From Prauserella aidingensis (GTDB lineage: Bacteria > Actinomycetota > Actinomycetes > Mycobacteriales > Pseudonocardiaceae), in NCBI RefSeq assembly GCF_024171865.1, contig NZ_JAMTCN010000027.1, forward strand, positions 1-64,000: 64,000 nt of DNA, in the 5' to 3' direction. Below are positions 42,848 to 49,509 of the stretch, in pieces. The translations under genes were made by a program, and so were the position numbers. Below the pieces are notes generated by a model. It saw only the letters and a program-made list of their open reading frames with translations, searched no databases and was not told the origin of the DNA. Numbering within the stretch: the first letter of the stretch is position 1; each line of letters opens with the position of its first letter.

Positions 42848-42895
42848 CAACATTCACCCGGGTACCGTTAGGCTGTGTCCGGGCCACGCGCCCAT

Positions 42896-42968
42896 GCCCT
42901 CGTAGCTCAGGGGATAGAGCACCGCTCTCCTAAAGCGGGTGTCGCAGGTTCGAATCCTGCCGGGGGCG
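42896..42968 (+). tRNA. tRNA-Arg, anticodon CCT
   Basis: 73 bases fold as a cloverleaf. Acceptor GCCCTCG pairs with CGGGGGC (one wobble), D-arm GCTCAGGGGATAGAGC, anticodon stem CCGCT/AGCGG around CTCCTAA with anticodon CCT, and T-arm GCAGGTTCGAATCCTGC. Discriminator G; CCA not encoded. It reads the rare AGG codon. Confidence 0.95.
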
Positions 42969-43390
42969 CCCATCTGGACCAGCACGAATGTGGCCCCTCA
43001 CCAGCGATAACGTCGGCGAGGGGTCGCATTGCTGTATGCGGCTGTTGAGAGAGCGTGAGCGGCTCGCCGTGCCGAGGGTGTGTCGAACTTCCCGCCCGGT
43101 CACCCGTGACCGAGAACCCGCATGAGCTTCGCTCACGCGATCTGCTCCTGCCCGTGGAGGTGCATGGCGTACAGCGGAAGCAACGCCAGGGACCTGCTGC
43201 GGAGTCGTGCCTCGACCCGCTCCCCCGTACCGCAGTGCCCGCCGGGAGCAGGCCGGGACGTCGAGTCCGCCCGACCGAGCTGCTCATCGACCGTGGCAGC
43301 GGAGTCGCCACAACAGATTGTCGTGTCACACGTCGGCCACGACTCCGCGCTGCATGAAACGGCAGGCCGCTTCGGTGCGAATGCACGGCC
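42969..43390. other. Intergenic region between tRNA-Arg and accessory island
   Basis: The first 55 bases hold the tRNA terminator. The rest has no reading frame with a ribosome site or recognisable product. I looked for a second copy of the tRNA 3-prime end as an attachment scar in the next 6 kb and did not see one. Confidence 0.55.
42994..43023 (+). terminator. Terminator of tRNA-Arg
   Basis: CCCCTC and GAGGGG pair around an 18-base partly self-complementary loop, followed by TCGCATTGCTG. It lies 25 bases after the tRNA. Confidence 0.6.
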
Positions 43391-43822
43391 ATGACTGCCG
43401 AACAGCCACGAACGAAGCGCCGCTGGGTATGGGTCGCCGCTGCGAGCAGCGTCCTCGTGCTCGGCGTCGCCGCAACCCTGTACTTCAGCCTGCGCGAGAC
43501 CACGATGACGGTGAGCGGCACCATCGCACTGACCGACGGTGTCACCGAGTACACCGAGGTCGGCGACTGCATGGGACACGAGGGCTACGACGACATCGGC
43601 CCCGGCGCACAAGTCACCATCACCGGCAACACCGGAACGGTGCTCGCGGCCGGTCAGCTCGGCGCCGGCCGCCAGGACGGCGACGCCTACTCGTGCCTGT
43701 TCGACTTCGACGTGGCGGACGTGCCCACCGGACATGGTCCGTACCAGGTCGAGGTGTCCCATCGCGGCACGATCGCCTTCACCGAGGACCAGGCCACCGG
43801 GATAGCGCTCACATTGGGGTGA
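43391..43822 (+). CDS. Hypothetical membrane-anchored or secreted protein
   Basis: 143 residues. A basic N-terminus (EQPRTKRRWVWV) and one hydrophobic segment (about 12-32) are followed by a beta-rich outer domain with VSGTIALTDG, GDCMGHEGYDDIGPGAQVTITG, AYSCLFDFDVADVP and YQVEVSHRGTIAFTEDQ. Two cysteines about 45 residues apart could form a disulfide. I have seen similar small envelope proteins in actinomycetes, but none has a known role. The ribosome site is weak (no clear GGAGG before the ATG). Confidence 0.65.
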   Translation: MTAEQPRTKRRWVWVAAASSVLVLGVAATLYFSLRETTMTVSGTIALTDGVTEYTEVGDCMGHEGYDDIGPGAQVTITGNTGTVLAAGQLGAGRQDGDAYSCLFDFDVADVPTGHGPYQVEVSHRGTIAFTEDQATGIALTLG

Positions 43823-43838
43823 TCACCGGCCACCACGC

Positions 43839-43979
43839 CGCATCGATGCCCGCCGTCCGTCAATAGGCCGACAGCAGGCTGCTGCCCTCTGCGGACACGG
43901 CGGCCGTCGCGATGTCCGGACCGAGGCGGAGCAGCTGATCAAGTACATGCGGCTCGCCGACATACGGCGCGAAGACTAG
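43839..43979 (+). pseudogene. Possible gene remnant converging on the Imm1 gene
   Basis: A frame with no start encodes GRRDVRTEAEQLIKYMRL, then ADIRRED and a TAG. The amphipathic composition looks like the C-terminus of a real protein rather than noise, but it has no upstream body. The stop overlaps the stop of the leftward Imm1 gene on the other strand. I cannot name the family. Confidence 0.3.
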
Positions 43980-44386
43980 ACGGTCGATCGGTCGTCGAGC
44001 TGTGACCGGATCGACGACGTCGGCCGCGCGCCGGTCACGAGGTATTCGTGCGCTGCGCGGCGTACATCGGCGATCGGGATCTCGGACTGTGGCGGGAACT
44101 CGGTGTCGCTACCCATGTAGTAGTAGAGCACCGTGTCGGCGTTCGATGCCTCCCCGAGCGAGAAGTACCCGCGTCCGCGGCCCGCGTGGTGCACCACGCC
44201 GACCCCTCGTTCGCTGCACAAACCGATATTCAGCAGACCAGCACTCGCCGGGTCGTCGGCAGCGTTGAACGCCACGAGAGTGGGCCCCGGCATGGCGGCG
44301 ACGGTGTCGAGCACGGCATCGAGTTCGGCGGCCGTCGTGACGCGTGCCGGCCCGTCGTGGTCGTACCAGGCGTCTAGCGCCACCAT
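43976..44386 (-). CDS. Imm1-family immunity protein
   Basis: 136 residues, a small alpha/beta protein. LDAWYDHDGPARVTTAAELDAVLD, LVAFNAADDPASAGLLNIGLCSERGVGVVHH and the end SEIPIADVRRAAHEYLVTGARP match the Imm1 pattern found downstream of deaminase-type polymorphic toxins in actinobacteria. Its start overlaps the end of the toxin gene by 13 bases, so the two are made together. It should bind and block the deaminase. No membrane segment or signal is present, consistent with cytosolic protection. Confidence 0.8.
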   Translation of the reverse strand: MVALDAWYDHDGPARVTTAAELDAVLDTVAAMPGPTLVAFNAADDPASAGLLNIGLCSERGVGVVHHAGRGRGYFSLGEASNADTVLYYYMGSDTEFPPQSEIPIADVRRAAHEYLVTGARPTSSIRSQLDDRSTV

Positions 44387-45135
44387 GGTGCACGACCCCC
44401 TTCGTAGGTCGTTGTGGTCGGCGTGCCGTCGGGTTTCGTCCCGTGGACGGTCAGTCGTGAACCTTCCGGCAGCATCACGGGCACCAGCGTGTCACACGAC
44501 GCCGGGCCGATGCAGGGAACGTTGTTGATCGTCACCGACGCGTCCCGTATGTCGTTGCGGACCATGTGAGCGGCGAGTTTCAGCTCGACATCCCCGGCGC
44601 GCGCGATCGGCGCCATGGGGAACCGTTGCGTGGTGACCCATTCGTCGACCCGGTCGGCGTTCTCGTCGCGGCCACTGACGATCTCTGTCATGTCGTCGTC
44701 ACCGTCGGCCGTCCACCAGAACCCGCGCGTCTTGTCCCCCGCGCCGGGCTTCACGGGCGGCGGCAAGGCGGCACGTGCCCGCTCGACGGGTGTTGCGTTC
44801 GGAGCGGATGTCGGAGGAGGCGCAGCGTCGGGTGTCGGCGTCGGTGCGCTCGTCGGTGCCGACCCCGGCAGACGCGCGCCGAGCTGGTCGAGGTAGCCGC
44901 GCAGCGTCTGCTCGATGTGGGCGAGGCGGCCGTGTTGCTGTTCGACCTGCTCGACGGCGTCCGCAGCCACGCCGGGTGCCTGTGCGGCGTCGGGGTCGTG
45001 GGCGCCCTCGATGACGTAGGCGTACATCTCGCGCGCCTCGACGGTGGTCTGCGAGGCGTGGGCGAGTTCTGATCGCGCGGCGGCGATCCGGTCCAGGACA
45101 CGACCGATGGTCTCTGCGAGCTGCTCGACCGGCAT
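44374..45135 (-). CDS. SCP1.201 / DddA-like deaminase toxin
   Basis: 253 residues. An N-terminal helical region (1-88, VEQLAETIGRVLDRIAAARSE and later helices, like WXG/type VII export adaptors) leads through a Pro/Ala/Thr linker (90-130) to a SCP1.201-type deaminase domain (135-245). Key residues are Asp182-Val-Glu184 on the first helix, then INNVPCIGPASC with Cys208 and Cys214, and LPEGSRLTVHG. Glu184 is the proton shuttle; the cysteines bind zinc. The first ligand is Asp rather than the usual His. The best-known relative, DddA, deaminates cytosine in double-stranded DNA. Imm1 lies directly downstream. Confidence 0.82.
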   Translation of the reverse strand: MPVEQLAETIGRVLDRIAAARSELAHASQTTVEAREMYAYVIEGAHDPDAAQAPGVAADAVEQVEQQHGRLAHIEQTLRGYLDQLGARLPGSAPTSAPTPTPDAAPPPTSAPNATPVERARAALPPPVKPGAGDKTRGFWWTADGDDDMTEIVSGRDENADRVDEWVTTQRFPMAPIARAGDVELKLAAHMVRNDIRDASVTINNVPCIGPASCDTLVPVMLPEGSRLTVHGTKPDGTPTTTTYEGGRAPWWR

Positions 45136-45242
45136 CCGGCCACCCCCGGCGGCTGCGGCGCGCAGCCTGGAACATCACCCCGACAGTCGTGGTGCACCTG
45201 CCCGGCCGGGAGCGCGGGGAGTCACCGGCCGGGCAGGCGAGA

Positions 45243-45500
45243 TCAGTCGATGCCGAGCCAGACATGCCAGCACGCTGAGCAGTCGGACAGCGCCGGGGGC
45301 GGGCGGCGTCGGCGACGCCGAGGAAGGGTGAGCTGACGACCGCACAGCATCTCGACCACCACGCCGGCCGGCGGTTCGTCGGCGAGGCCGCCGATGTGGC
45401 GTACGCCGCCGGCGACCGGGCGCCAGCCGGGCACGCTGTCGAGGTCGGGCTCCTCCGGGGCGGCTGTGGCCGGTGTTCGCTCGACAACCCCGCCGGTCAC
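45243..45500 (-). CDS. Small conserved protein with possible zinc site
   Basis: 85 residues. The centre, WRPVAGGVRHIGGLADEPP, is followed by EMLCGRQLTLPRR and a C-terminal CSACWHVW. The three cysteines plus a histidine would suit one zinc ion. Short proteins of this pattern often lie beside Scr1-type HTH or toxin loci in Pseudonocardiaceae, but I know no function. It starts with a GTG overlapping the preceding stop by four bases (GTGA), so it is translated with its neighbours upstream of the toxin. Confidence 0.65.
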   Translation of the reverse strand: MTGGVVERTPATAAPEEPDLDSVPGWRPVAGGVRHIGGLADEPPAGVVVEMLCGRQLTLPRRRRRRPPPALSDCSACWHVWLGID

Positions 45501-45745
45501 GTCCGCACCCCCGCGGCCTGCTGCGCGTCGATCACGACGCGCGACGGGGTTTCGCCGCCCTCGAGTTCGGCGGCACGCTGGTACAGCTCCGCGGCCATGC
45601 CGCCGAGCAGTTCGGCCAGCTCGCGCACGTGCCGCGCGGACAGCTCGCCGCCATCCTGCCGCGTCATCAGCTCGACCACGGCATCGCCGAGGCCCGCGTT
45701 GACCTGCCCGACACGGGCGAGCAGCTCCCGGTCGCGGGCAATCAT
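45497..45745 (-). CDS. Small helical protein in toxin operon
   Basis: 82 residues, almost entirely helical and charged: RDRELLARVGQVNAGLGDAVVELM, ELSARHVRELAELLGGMAAEL and YQRAAELEGG. No cysteine, signal or membrane helix. The ATG overlaps the stop of the preceding tiny ORF by four bases, and its own stop overlaps the next GTG. It could be a chaperone or export adaptor for the deaminase, judging only by size, composition and linkage. Confidence 0.6.
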   Translation of the reverse strand: MIARDRELLARVGQVNAGLGDAVVELMTRQDGGELSARHVRELAELLGGMAAELYQRAAELEGGETPSRVVIDAQQAAGVRT

Positions 45746-45879
45746 TCGTCGTCCTCGCGCTCGCCACAGCCGAGGAGTCCGTCGAAGTCGTCGTTCTCGT
45801 CGCGCTCGTCGTCCGTTGGTGCGCCACCGGAGCGGACAACGGCGTAGGGCAGTTGACAGGCCCCGCTGATCCATCCCAT
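45742..45879 (-). CDS. 45-residue ORF heading the toxin operon
   Basis: A 45-residue frame: MGWISGACQLPYAVVRSGG then a very acidic end (DDERDENDDFDGLLGCGERE). Its TGA overlaps the ATG of the next gene (ATGA), the same coupling seen twice more downstream. That linkage is the main reason to accept it. The ribosome site is weak. It lies just inside the divergent promoter region with the palindromic sites. Function unknown. Confidence 0.45.
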   Translation of the reverse strand: MGWISGACQLPYAVVRSGGAPTDDERDENDDFDGLLGCGEREDDE

Positions 45880-45920
45880 AGCGGCGAGTGTTGGCCACCC
45901 GGGCCGCCAACGTCGAGAAG

Positions 45921-46032
45921 ATTGCGCAAAATTGCGGTTCGGTCACGCCAACGGGGCAGTCGTTTCGCGGCGACCAGAGGTGGTTGCTCCGGTCACTCGC
46001 CTGGTCGTTGCATATTGAGCAAAATTGCGCAA
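45921..46032. promoter_or_regulatory. Divergent promoter region with two TTGCGCAA-type sites
   Basis: TTGCGCAAAATTGCGG (45922-45937) and TTGAGCAAAATTGCGCAA (46015-46032) share the core GCAAAATTGCG. Each is built from TTGCGCAA-like half sites joined at AAAATT, so each is close to a dyad. They start 93 bases apart, about nine helical turns, between the leftward toxin operon and the rightward HTH module. The local AT content is far above the surroundings. A regulator of the island, perhaps the Scr1-type HTH protein encoded downstream, is the obvious candidate. Confidence 0.6.
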
Positions 46033-46065
46033 ACAATGGGGAGGCCGTCACGAGGAGGAGGCACG

Positions 46066-46386
46066 ATGCCCGCACGCGAACGTCCCACGGAGATGAGATT
46101 CGTCGGCACCAGCTCTGGCCAGGGCGGATGCCCCACGCTGTGGGTCACCGACCGCGGAACGCTGGTCGTGCAGGGAACGACTGTCACCGACGAGCACGCC
46201 CTCGACGCGATGCGCTCTCGCGGCAACGGATTGCCTGACCACGAGTCTGCGGTCGAGATCCCGGCGGAGTTGATGCCGTTCGTCGATGTCGAAGCGTTGC
46301 AGCGTCTCGCGTTCGCCGACGAGGACCGCCCGCATTTCACGGTCGACCCGGACGCGGTGGCGAGGATCCCGGAGGTTCGTCGATGA
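46066..46386 (+). CDS. Small conserved protein of Scr1-linked module
   Basis: 106 residues. MRFVGTSSGQGGCPTLWVTDRGTLVVQG is a pattern I recognise from many actinobacterial HTH/DUF397-type loci. VEIPAELMPFVDVEALQRLAF and the end follow. It is mostly beta with one Cys. GAGGAGGAG precedes the ATG. Its stop overlaps the DUF6879 start by four bases. No function is known; it may be an accessory to the regulator two genes on. Confidence 0.75.
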   Translation: MPARERPTEMRFVGTSSGQGGCPTLWVTDRGTLVVQGTTVTDEHALDAMRSRGNGLPDHESAVEIPAELMPFVDVEALQRLAFADEDRPHFTVDPDAVARIPEVRR

Positions 46387-46922
46387 GCGAGTGGGTCGAG
46401 CCCGGCCCGGACTTCTTCGACCTCGTCACCGGCGTTCGTGTCAGCTCGTGGCGTTGGGAATGCCAGGGCGAGTATCGCGAGCCCGACGAACGCGAGCCGT
46501 GGCGTCGCTGGCGCGATGGACGGCCGGACAACTCGTTCATGCACGGCTGGGTCAAGACCATCCGCAGCATCACCGAGGCCGGGAAGCGGTTCGAACGGGT
46601 CCGTATGGTCACCGAACCGCCCACGGACTACCTCCAGTGGATGTTCTCCTTCACCCACATCAACATCGAGGCCGGTGAGGACATCCGGTGGCTGGCCGAG
46701 AGCCGCGCCCACGCGCTGGAGCTGCCGATGCCCGAGCACGACTTCTACATCATCGACGACGAGCGCGTCGCGATCCTGCACTTCGGTGAGAACGGCGTCG
46801 CCGGTGCCGAGGTGCTCGACGACCCGGAGACGCTCGCGAAGCACCGGCAGTGGCGCGATCTCGTATGGCCGATGGCCGTGCCGCACATGGAATCCGAGTA
46901 CTCCAGCGCGAGGAGCGTGTGA
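46383..46922 (+). CDS. DUF6879 family protein
   Basis: 179 residues. FVEPGPDFF-type opening (WVEPGPDFFDLVTG), then WRWECQGEYREPDEREPWRRW, RVRMVTEPPTDYLQWMF, NIEAGEDIRWLAES and HDFYIIDDERVAILHFG are the family hallmarks. These proteins sit next to Scr1-type HTH regulators across actinobacteria, but their activity is unknown. Overlaps on both sides (four bases with each neighbour) show a tightly coupled three-gene unit. No signal or membrane helix. Confidence 0.85.
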   Translation: MSEWVEPGPDFFDLVTGVRVSSWRWECQGEYREPDEREPWRRWRDGRPDNSFMHGWVKTIRSITEAGKRFERVRMVTEPPTDYLQWMFSFTHINIEAGEDIRWLAESRAHALELPMPEHDFYIIDDERVAILHFGENGVAGAEVLDDPETLAKHRQWRDLVWPMAVPHMESEYSSARSV

Positions 46923-47788
46923 CCTCCCTCGAAACGAACCCCTGGATCGCATTCGGCGACAAGCTCCGCCAGCTGCGCAAGCGCGCGGGGCTGACCGGTG
47001 CTGCGCTCGCCGAGCAGGCGGGTCCCGGCTGGGCGCCGTCGAAGATCTCGCGCATTCAGGGCGGACAACAAGTCATCTCCGAACAGGACCTCGACACCTG
47101 GTGCCGGCTGTGCCGAGCCAGCGAGGCCGAGCGTGACGACCTGTTCGCGGACCTGCGCGCCGCACGCCTCGAGTCCGCCCGCTGGAAGCGGCGCGCCAGC
47201 GGCGGGCACGAGCCTGTACAGCGTTCATTCGCCGAGGACGAGCAGGCCGCGACGGTCGTGCGCAACCTGGAAACCGGCATCGTGCCGGGCCTGCTGCAAA
47301 CCCCGGACTATGCACGCGCCGTGTTCCGAGCGTTCGCGCATCTTCAAGGCAGCCCCGACGACGCCGACGACGCCGTGCGCGAACGCCTCAGGCGGCAGAC
47401 CATCCTCTACGACTCCACCAAACGCATCGAACTGCTGGTCACCGAGGCCGCACTGCGCACACCGATCGCAGAGCCGACAGTCATGGCCGCGCAGATCGAC
47501 CGCCTGCTCGCCGTGCTCGGAGTTGCCAACGTCCGGTTCGGCATCATCCCGCTCGGCGTGCAGGTCGACGTGCCACCGATGCACGGATTCTGGATCCTCG
47601 ACGACGTAGCGCGGATCGAAGTGCTCACAACCGAAGTCGTAACCCGCAATCCCACCGACATCCGGCTCTACAACGCCATGCTCGACCAACTCTGGGAACG
47701 CGACGAACTCGCCGAGGGCGACCAGGCGCGGCAACTTCTACTCACCGTGTCCGAGGGTTATCAGCGCGAGTCCTCTCAGCTGACATAG
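46919..47788 (+). CDS. Scr1-type helix-turn-helix regulator
   Basis: 289 residues. An XRE-type HTH (about 8-65) reads FGDKLRQLRKRAGLTGAALAEQAG and SKISRIQGGQQVIS. The C-terminal DUF5753-type effector domain (about 95-280) has TVVRNLETGIVPGLLQTPDYAR, RRQTILYDSTKRIELLVTEAALR and GFWILDD. Such regulators act with small partner proteins in development and toxin-antitoxin-like loci of actinomycetes. The GTG start overlaps the DUF6879 stop. The most likely targets are the two palindromic sites upstream of its own operon. Confidence 0.85.
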   Translation: MTSLETNPWIAFGDKLRQLRKRAGLTGAALAEQAGPGWAPSKISRIQGGQQVISEQDLDTWCRLCRASEAERDDLFADLRAARLESARWKRRASGGHEPVQRSFAEDEQAATVVRNLETGIVPGLLQTPDYARAVFRAFAHLQGSPDDADDAVRERLRRQTILYDSTKRIELLVTEAALRTPIAEPTVMAAQIDRLLAVLGVANVRFGIIPLGVQVDVPPMHGFWILDDVARIEVLTTEVVTRNPTDIRLYNAMLDQLWERDELAEGDQARQLLLTVSEGYQRESSQLT

Positions 47789-47903
47789 GACCACACGACC
47801 TTTGGTCTGTACCAGCTCAACTGTCCCGAGCCACCACTACGCCCGACGGACGGCAACTCCTCACACCGTCACGCCACTCGGCCCCGCTCCGACGACACCG
47901 CAC

Positions 47904-48194
47904 TCACGAGGCGTCACCTGCCACCCTCTGCTCCGGCTGATCAGCGGCACGATCGCACCGCTCCGCAGCGCCACGCTCCTCCTCCCGGCCGCAGGTGCGC
48001 AGCCACACGCCGACCACGAACAGCACCACCGACGGCGTCGTGACGTAGAGCGGATCCACACCGAGGAGAAATTCGGCGACCGGATAGCACGCGACCCCGA
48101 CGAACGCCAGGAACACGAAAACGAGGTGCACGTCGTCGAAGAACACCCGACGCACCAGACGGCGCAGCCGGTTCGACACCCCACCGCACGACAT
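47904..48194 (-). CDS. Small two-helix membrane protein
   Basis: 96 residues. Two hydrophobic helices, VHLVFVFLAFVGVACYPVAE and TTPSVVLFVVGVWLRTC, are linked by a short loop, with a basic N-terminus (SNRLRRLVRRVF) and an acidic, Arg-rich tail. I do not recognise the family. It is followed upstream by a broken small membrane protein gene in the same direction, with which it may once have formed a pair. Confidence 0.55.
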   Translation of the reverse strand: MSCGGVSNRLRRLVRRVFFDDVHLVFVFLAFVGVACYPVAEFLLGVDPLYVTTPSVVLFVVGVWLRTCGREEERGAAERCDRAADQPEQRVAGDAS

Positions 48195-48237
48195 CTACGC
48201 ACACCCTCATCGGCCGGCACAGGAAAGCCCACTCATG

Positions 48238-48497
48238 CTACGGGCGGTTCCTCCACAGGTCGAGCCGCGAGGGAACGAGCCCCGCCTTCTTGAGCTGCCG
48301 CTCACGCAACGACTTCCCGACGAGAAGAACGGCCATGAATACCGGACACAGGACCGCCTGAAAAAGAATGCATACTTCGATTCCAGCACGGAAATGAAGA
48401 CCACCCCGCTCACGAGAGAGGCAGCTACCCCCAGGTTTCCGACGATGAACAGGGCTCTGTGCGACCGCCGCCAGTGCGGTTTCCCCACGGGACTCAT
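48238..48497 (-). pseudogene. Frameshifted small membrane protein gene
   Basis: From the ATG at 48497 the frame gives HWRRSHRALFIVGNLGVAAS and SLVSGVVFISVLESKYAFFF, then turns to Arg/Ser-rich noise. A second frame starting at the same place continues sensibly as QAVLCPVFMAVLLVGKSLRE and KKAGLVPSRLDLWRNRP with a stop at 48238. One T missing from the T5 run (A5 at 48361-48365 on the given strand) explains the break. Restored, it would be an 86-residue protein with two membrane helices. Function unknown. Confidence 0.65.
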
Positions 48498-48525
48498 GAC
48501 TCGCAACGTTCTCCCGGGCGTTGAT

Positions 48526-48963
48526 CTACTGGAGGTGGACCAGGTAGGTGCGGCTGTCCCACGGCGGTTCGGAGAACGGATCGGGTTCGACCGCCAGCAC
48601 GGTTCCGCCCATGTGCTGGAACAGACCCTGCATGAGCGGAATCGGCACGGGATGCATCTCGATGCCCTCGGTGTCGGCCGCGACCACATCGGCATACGAC
48701 GCCGGCACATTCTCGGTCACCTGCCGTGCGGGCTCGGCGTCCTCGGTCACGACAACCGGCCTCCGGACGGTCGGGCTGCCGAACTGCGACCACCACGCCA
48801 CCAGTTCCTGCATCATGTCCAGCTCGAGCTCATAGCGCCCCGGCGCATCCGGCGCCCGCACCGACATCGTCAGCCCCACCCGCTCACCCGGCCGCACCAC
48901 GTGCACCAGCTCCGCCAACGCCGCCACCTGCACCGCAGGCGGCGAATGCTGCAACACCATCAA
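48526..48963 (-). CDS. C-terminal domain like those of SAM methyltransferases, probably truncated
   Basis: 145 residues from the first possible start. RPGERVGLTMSVRAPDAPGRYELELDMMQE resembles the Ig-like domain found after actinobacterial glycan or methyltransferase domains. IEMHPVPIPLMQGLFQHMGG and WDSRTYLVHL resemble the end of class I methyltransferase-like proteins. Coding-like sequence (RIEFLRVDGRRSPFDDDGFD) extends about 100 bases further upstream without a start, so the 5-prime end is probably lost. No catalytic motif is left. Low certainty on family. Confidence 0.45.
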   Translation of the reverse strand: MMVLQHSPPAVQVAALAELVHVVRPGERVGLTMSVRAPDAPGRYELELDMMQELVAWWSQFGSPTVRRPVVVTEDAEPARQVTENVPASYADVVAADTEGIEMHPVPIPLMQGLFQHMGGTVLAVEPDPFSEPPWDSRTYLVHLQ

Positions 48964-49509
48964 CCTGATCGCACCGTCGAAACCGTCGTCGTCGAACGGC
49001 GACCGCCGCCCGTCGACCCGGAGGAACTCGATCCGGTCCTGATCCGCATTGAGCTCACGCGCGGAGGATCGACCACGTTCGGAGTCCCTTCGAGAACAGG
49101 GCGGCCGAATCCGCGCAGGATCGACCGCCGCAACAAGCGGAGAATGAAGAAAGATCGCGTTGAGAAACGGGTCAGGCAGTGACGTCGAACGACGCTCTCA
49201 CGTGCCTTCTTTCCCGCATAGCCAACAGTGAATCCAATCAGTCCGATGAGGACGGTGAGTACGATTCAGTGATCAACCTGTGAATGACCCTGACACGCAC
49301 GCGCTGAAAGCGTCAATTGCGCTCACCGGTTCAGGCCAATAGCCACACCACCGTGTCGCCGAGTGGTCTAACCCGGGCGAGGTATTGCTCACTCGTCTGC
49401 CGGTGCGATGACTACTCGGCCGAACGGCCGATGTGCCGCGAGGGGACACACGGTGGCCCGGCACCACGTGCACCACGGCCGTACACGCGGTAGGAAGGAG
49501 GTCGTGAGC
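48964..49509. other. Degenerate region at the right end of the accessory island
   Basis: The first 100 bases continue the truncated leftward frame. Beyond that I see no gene, RNA or IS end; composition is less GC-rich than the surroundings at about 49190-49400. The promoter of the hemerythrin gene must lie in the last 100 bases. Confidence 0.5.

Follow-up and report, generated by a model that had tools for sequence, protein, structure and literature searches.

A 64,000-nucleotide stretch of the Prauserella aidingensis genome (contig NZ_JAMTCN010000027.1, positions 1 to 64,000 of the forward strand; hereafter the window) carries five genes on its minus strand at 43976-45879: three small open reading frames (ORFs), A45, B82 and C85, a 253-residue deaminase toxin and an Imm1 immunity gene. 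The locus represents a polymorphic toxin-immunity cassette, placed in a variable segment linked to tRNA-Arg in a Pseudonocardiaceae genome, and its toxin and immunity gene add one more pair to a known kind. What looks new is the evidence that ties the toxin's helical front end, through its family, to an EccC-like ATPase. On balance we lean towards an overall reading in which a polymorphic hairpin-deaminase/Imm1 cassette would use this hairpin as an export tag for the ATPase and would be preceded by a regulatory module. The toxin itself would comprise a constant hairpin, a linker and a deaminase tip of the DddA/SCP1.201 type. The parts of the cassette are as follows.

45742-45879, minus strand: A45, a short acidic-tailed ORF preceding B82, with relatives in loci L084, L085, L086 and L099.
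45497-45745, minus strand: B82, a small protein of no known family with a near-fixed start (MI..DR.LL; 20-row alignment).
45243-45500, minus strand: C85, a small zinc-ribbon-like protein (19-row alignment).
45197-45237, minus strand: inverted repeat 3' of the C85 stop, with perfect 13-bp arms at 45225-45237 and 45197-45209.
45136-45189, minus strand: toxin leader, conserved 5' of the toxin and separable from the inverted-repeat hairpin.
44374-45135, minus strand: deaminase toxin, 253 residues (PF14428, AlphaFold2, Foldseek).
44860-45135, minus strand: toxin residues 1-92, the constant N-terminal helical hairpin (helices 3-42 and 50-85).
44398-44814, minus strand: deaminase domain, residues 108-246 (PF14428 match).
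44590-44592, minus strand: codon of Asp182, the predicted first zinc ligand.
44584-44586, 44512-44514 and 44494-44496, minus strand: codons of Glu184, Cys208 and Cys214, respectively.
43976-44386, minus strand: Imm1 immunity gene (PF14430).

Our own codon-usage gene caller selects all five genes, C85 marginally (score 5.7, threshold 4). A first-pass annotation, made by a model from the letters of the window, had placed the ORFs and their overlaps correctly: four bases each for A45/B82 and B82/C85, and 13 bases (44374-44386) for toxin and Imm1. Its chain of small coupled ORFs holds as far as C85, where it ends because a gap of 107 bases, containing the inverted repeat and the conserved leader, precedes the toxin. 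The same annotation had named the toxin an SCP1.201/DddA-like deaminase and its overlapping neighbour an Imm1 gene, and both identifications stand. PF14428 matches the toxin with 107.7 bits (cut-off 25; E 5.6e-31), and PF14430 matches Imm1 with 95.6 bits (cut-off 22.4; E 5e-27). An AlphaFold2 model of the toxin (mean pLDDT 87.7, pTM 0.59) consists of two long helices (3-42 and 50-85), a low-confidence linker and a deaminase core; its best PDB match in Foldseek is DddA (8e5d, E 1.5e-5, prob 1.00), with 6u08 also at prob 1.00. The tip is a predicted cytosine deaminase, from which Imm1 is predicted to protect the producer. Deaminase relatives occur in 82 of 200 Pseudonocardiaceae genomes (the family genomes below), and the source genome has five PF14428 matches over the cut-off. 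Imm1 is the next gene in 95 of 101 unique relative toxins.

The polymorphic character of the cassette is evident from its relatives. Across seven congeneric toxins, identity is 63-87% over the first 92 residues and 31-58% over the tips, save for the tips of the window/L092 pair at 94% (local alignments, some partial). In DNA comparisons with L085, L086, L091 and L100, identity is 74-94% for B82, the inverted repeat, the leader and toxin residues 1-92, and 43-64% for the rest of the toxin and Imm1; A45 is looser (50-76%), and C85, absent from L085, L086 and L100, is 83% identical in L091. Orphan immunity genes are found in L085, L092 and L102. The first (L085b) is 95% identical to the Imm1 of L100, the second (L092orph) 87% identical to that of L086 and the third (L102b) 77% identical over 74 residues to L085a. 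Computation thus reveals a constant N-terminus with exchanged tips, together with orphan immunity genes, the marks of a polymorphic toxin. L085 and L100 apparently occupy the same chromosomal place, beside a tRNA-Leu, in two species; their tips and regulators differ, the toxin of L100 is broken, and L085 keeps the Imm1 that is 95% identical to the one in L100.

The helical N-terminal region that the first-pass annotation saw in place of a recognised secretion domain is supported, its two helices being modelled with a block pLDDT of 83-92. With a profile built on residues 1-92 of the toxin, relatives turn up in 137 of the 200 family genomes. In L275 the hairpin is fused to CdiA_C_tRNase (PF18664, 27.9 bits, just over the cut-off of 26.5), and elsewhere it is fused to at least two unnamed tips, one repeated in genomes G099, G043, G076 and others and another present in L250-L252; hairpin-tip genes mostly have a small gene close downstream. 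Standalone small helical ORFs lie just upstream of toxins in L195, L208, L003/L005 and L275, and hhalign ties the toxin N-terminus to the standalone ORFs of L195, L208, L003, L005 and L098 (prob 91.9). The nearest Pfam family is DUF6244 (PF19757). Of 13 members compared, 6 match it with E values no higher than 1, the best being 3.4e-4; the window hairpin, at 14.7 bits against a cut-off of 31.6, falls outside it, and the name DUF6244 was not found in our literature search. The G099, G043 and G076 genomes (L263-L271) hold 9-20 hairpin-domain matches, and 9 of the 11 hairpin genes fetched there are fused to the unnamed tip and followed by a 109-116-residue gene; two scanned proteins with this tip had no Pfam match over cut-off.

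Two members of the hairpin family, of 82-87 residues each, also occur in tandem directly upstream of a 907-910-residue ATPase, which is followed by a 118-158-residue protein (genomes G000, G033 and G113).

L283:4133-7889 (G000:C3), L284:7733-11326 and L285:4235-7912: ATPase operon with two hairpin genes, an EccC-like FtsK/SpoIIIE ATPase and a 118-158-residue protein.

Both members of the pair were found in nine further ATPase loci. The ATPase matches PF01580 (FtsK/SpoIIIE) with 79.5 and 74.3 bits in G000 and G113, respectively, and contains a Walker A motif. Its best NCBIfam matches are EccCa (TIGR03924, E 1.7e-24) and EssC, far below the cut-offs, and its best solved match is the FtsK/SpoIIIE protein 4nh0 (E 9.4e-22), followed by YukB and EccC5 (2.6e-12). 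The three operons follow the pattern of an EccC/EssC-type ATPase with two small helical genes, although they lie below the EccC equivalog cut-offs. The toxin N-terminus aligns with the two operon hairpins at hhalign probabilities of 97.1 and 96.1, and the window toxin is recovered by profiles built on these hairpins (E 3.6e-5 and 2.7e-4), against 0, 1 and 0 matches for reversed-sequence decoys. On these profile comparisons we take the N-terminus of the toxin to be homologous to the standalone hairpin pair beside the ATPase.

The distribution of the ATPase points the same way. It is present in 160 of the 200 family genomes, mostly in one copy per genome; a sample of 197 genomes from across the class contains 19 with it, the source genome among them. 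All 137 hairpin-positive genomes carry it (by eye; Fisher 4.6e-26), so that none of the 40 ATPase-less genomes has a hairpin match; the association is in part trivial because the operon's own hairpins are counted. Three of the 82 deaminase-positive genomes lack the ATPase (G030, G132 and G148), and none of these has a hairpin match (by eye).

These results suggest, by homology, a type VII-like export route for the hairpin toxins. The hairpin may act as an export tag that the EccC-like FtsK/SpoIIIE ATPase recognises, and the two standalone hairpins encoded in the ATPase operon can be likened to EsxA/EsxB, which pair with EccC. Once delivered to rivals, the tip would deaminate cytosines while Imm1 would protect the producer. 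The export-related element is then likely to be the toxin's own N-terminus and not the small ORFs. Many of the sampled genomes carry small polymorphic toxins without a recognised secretion domain, and the tie between a shared N-terminus and a conserved ATPase operon with a hairpin pair offers a testable candidate exit route for them. More broadly, and with rather less confidence than we attach to the reading of the cassette itself, we tentatively propose that the ATPase and its two hairpin proteins could export a large family of small hairpin-tip toxins in most of the sampled Pseudonocardiaceae, the Asp-ligand deaminase being one cargo. A limited literature search, in which the type VII literature was not covered in depth, found no description of such a hairpin-pair/ATPase system, and its newness is unproven because the search was limited.

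Several observations weigh against the export reading. There are 23 ATPase-positive genomes without a hairpin match, and the co-presence statistic ignores phylogeny, related species not being independent. Comparison of the two operon hairpins with each other gives no clear relationship (prob 8.1), and their profiles, run at E 1e-3, recover no more than 19 and 9 of 108 toxin genes. The toxin hairpin is not detectably WXG100 (no Pfam match; hhalign E 0.046), so this candidate identity was not adopted, and Foldseek returns generic helix hairpins only for the toxin helices. EccC is a membrane-spanning protein, whereas a hydropathy scan of this ATPase brings out no transmembrane segment clearly (one of the two examined has a weak one), and no other type VII core genes were recognised near the ATPase in a visual check of the opening residues of each neighbouring gene. 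Because the hairpin did not pass as WXG100 and the ATPase is not proven to be membrane-anchored, we do not class the route as type VII secretion.

Some of these points would suit a different arrangement, in which the cell's ordinary ESX type VII system exports the toxin and the job of the ATPase operon and its hairpin pair is unrelated, for example in DNA handling. The absence of a clear membrane helix in the ATPase is in keeping with this, and the genome does contain WXG100 genes (eight matches, seven over the cut-off). Nevertheless, the hairpin is homologous to the ATPase-side pair and not detectably to WXG100, and the ATPase-less genomes are free of hairpin matches; we consider use of the ordinary ESX system unlikely.

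The genes upstream of the toxin would, in our reading, act in its regulation. Divergent to A45-B82-C85 is a second operon, which the first-pass annotation did not include.

46066-46386, plus strand: P9, a small divergent gene with no family match.
46383-46922, plus strand: DUF6879 gene (PF21806, E 2.6e-51).
46919-47788, plus strand: XRE-type regulator with HTH_31 and DUF5753 (PF13560, E 6.4e-15; PF19054, E 2.9e-35; start by gene caller).

Relatives of P9 stand beside DUF6879/XRE genes in L084-L086, L099, L103, L105, L110 and L119. This operon and the divergent A45-B82-C85 set most likely constitute a regulatory module and not toxin-specific chaperones; control of the toxin may be exerted through the inverted repeat and the leader. 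A regulatory role is the simplest reading of the small ORFs and agrees with the XRE/DUF397 pairs of Streptomyces, those tested in S. coelicolor being regulators and not toxin-antitoxin systems according to PMC10364602. The likeness lies in an XRE-DUF5753 regulator beside small conserved genes and the difference in P9, B82 and C85, which have no DUF397 match; for P9 in particular, hhalign against DUF397 gives E 0.25 and Pfam no match, so P9 could not be identified as the DUF397 partner of such a pair. The name DUF6879 was not found in the literature search.

Relatives of B82 fill 108 rows in 41 of the 200 family genomes and those of C85 28 rows in 12, of which at least 9 and at least 5, respectively, lie near a deaminase (hand comparison). 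Among the 30 B82 and 21 C85 genes in the fetched loci, counted by eye, a gene labelled XRE stands within four genes of 15 and 16, respectively, and a toxin or Imm1 gene within four genes of 8 and 5. The XRE genes belong either to a divergent P9/DUF6879/XRE set or to a co-directional regulator of about 400 residues (HTH_31 in the one scanned). L084 lacks a toxin but carries A45, B82, C85 and the inverted repeat. The repeat of the window is terminator- or attenuator-like, with no T run; its half occurs without the leader at G000:C15, G067:C2:1128139 and G067:C2:1189694, and the leader half occurs alone, 5' of a toxin, at G067:C5:107377. Because toxinless copies exist and the repeat and leader halves are found apart, we regard A45-B82-C85 as a separable module. 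An extra repeat piece at G067:C5:71999 adjoins a partial hairpin-domain match at 71752 and is probably a toxin remnant.

C85 has four invariant residues, His35, Cys53, Cys74 and Cys77, in its alignment; it scores 20.4 bits with PF16827 (zf-HC3), under the cut-off of 25, and resembles, at an hhalign prob of 82, five hand-picked zinc-ribbon-like ORFs that either neighbour B82 or lie upstream of other toxins. B82 has nothing over cut-off in Pfam (DUF6907, E 0.12) and no NCBIfam or PADLOC match. In L098:5955-7395, C85, B82, a standalone hairpin-family protein, a different deaminase and Imm1 stand in a row. B82-like genes in reverse orientation lie inside one conserved gene cluster in L090, L101, L106, L108, L109 and L121 that looks like a set of mycofactocin genes.

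Another alternative is a non-exported deaminase, acting inside the cell as an XRE-controlled toxin-antitoxin or abortive-infection unit with Imm1 as antitoxin. XRE/DUF397 genes are enriched just upstream of the toxins (8 of 72 genes there, compared with 4 of the 162 at least five away; one-sided p 0.009; 25 of 27 named loci counted), and a hydropathy scan, run without a signal-peptide predictor, shows no membrane-like segment in the toxin. Tip exchange, orphan Imm1 genes and the occurrence of the N-terminus on other tips are, on the other hand, marks of delivered polymorphic toxins, and the S. coelicolor pairs mentioned above speak against a toxin-antitoxin function. PADLOC gives weak matches only (toxin E 0.071, XRE E 0.0077), on which account a role in anti-phage defence was set aside. 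We give this intracellular interpretation little credence.

The first-pass annotation had proposed that the small ORFs are export adaptors, chaperones or further immunity factors. They are real conserved genes, but such roles are weakly supported at best, since the genes recur without a toxin and often beside XRE. The strongest form of the proposal, in which A45, B82 and C85 are the toxin's own partners, as in LXG toxins with small partners, draws on the close B82 copies (at least 65% identity), 8 of 11 rows of which lie within about 2.5 kb of a listed toxin match (hand count). Moreover, four of the five loci in which both B82 and C85 are called have a deaminase or Imm1 nearby, and B82, the inverted repeat and the leader are conserved about as well as the toxin N-terminus. 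For only 21 of 101 toxins do the three upstream genes include XRE, DUF397, P9 or DUF6879, which counts against the regulatory part of our reading. Opposed to the partner proposal are L084 and L099, which carry the set, or A45-B82, without a toxin; the small share of B82 and C85 rows near a deaminase given above; the few of the 101 toxins with B82 or C85 genes nearby; and the inverted repeat standing between the set and the toxin. Profile comparison, further, shows no relation of B82 to the hairpin family and lends no support to the small ORFs as hairpin partners. We judge it distinctly improbable that the small ORFs are partners of the toxin, and prefer the regulatory module.

The zinc site of the tip is as first described, with Asp182-x-Glu184, Cys208 and Cys214 present in an [HCD]xE plus two-Cys arrangement, but the view that Asp is an unusual, less common ligand had to be abandoned. 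The site was located in 113 of 119 unique domains: 64 have DxE, one DxD and 48 HxE, with both cysteines accompanying Asp in 62 and His in 43. The Asp share (65 of 113) is biased upward because the relatives were gathered with an Asp-type query. In a tree of 101 domains of at least 100 residues, from which the site column was not removed, about four changes (4-6 over the bootstraps) account for the 56 Asp rows, 54 of which fall in one clade together with two His rows. The 13-base overlap with Imm1 is the usual one for Asp-type toxins (30 of 54) and the 4-base overlap for His-type toxins (23 of 40); among all 101 unique toxins the overlap is 13 bases in 38 and 4 bases in 28. The Asp-ligand clade may serve searches for new base-editing enzymes. 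PMC3482391 already gives the motif [HCD]xE for toxin deaminases and lists Imm1 with SCP1.201 deaminases. Many SCP1.201 enzymes are active on single-stranded DNA, according to a 2024 commentary (PMC10847098).

Besides the XRE/DUF397 pairs, three known systems come closest. The zinc ligand in DddA of Burkholderia cenocepacia is His. DddA shares the deaminase fold and is the best PDB match, but is delivered by type VI secretion (PMC7901873), whereas the window toxin has a helical N-terminus, an Asp ligand and about 23% identity to it. In the umbrella toxin UmbC1 of S. coelicolor, the toxin domain is a mutagenic cytosine deaminase in Escherichia coli, and the Imm1-family gene umbD1 lies directly downstream of the deaminase tip, as in the window (PMC11062931). 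UmbC1 differs in being a TAT-signal ALF-repeat protein in a particle, whereas the window toxin is a 253-residue hairpin-tip protein without a recognised signal. The deaminase profile also matches chain 8w20_A (E 2.8e-7), labelled 'Intein C-terminal splicing domain-containing protein', which we take to be UmbC1 although the record label does not say so. The LXG/WXG100 type VII toxins likewise combine an N-terminal helical domain with a variable tip. LXG toxins have small hairpin partner proteins, and in the LXG/WXG100 systems, as here, standalone hairpin genes either neighbour an EccC/EssC-like ATPase or immediately precede the toxin; the window hairpin differs in having no WXG100 or LXG match, and the ATPase in lacking clear membrane helices.

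The whole module lies in a segment that varies between congeners.

42895-42972, plus strand: tRNA-Arg (CCT), found by ARAGORN, whose 3' end marks the border of the variable segment.
42973-49461, no strand: variable segment holding the module, from synteny with congeners.

Judged on matches of more than 150 bases, synteny with all six congeners stops at 42969-42984, just 3' of the tRNA-Arg, and returns at about 49462 (49462-49467) in three of them, G033, G095 and G116. No convincing direct repeats bounding the segment were seen among the best 20, by size, of 43 repeat families. A sigma-70 scan found no promoter, and a T-run scan found one terminator-like site, at 48227-48245, against a shuffle mean of 2.6. 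For the other congeners, the contig of G133 ends, G149 shows no resumption within the fetched stretch, and G067 (L230) shares only 47940-49062, a piece that has no match of more than 150 bases in the other five congeners and is 78-84% identical in G067.

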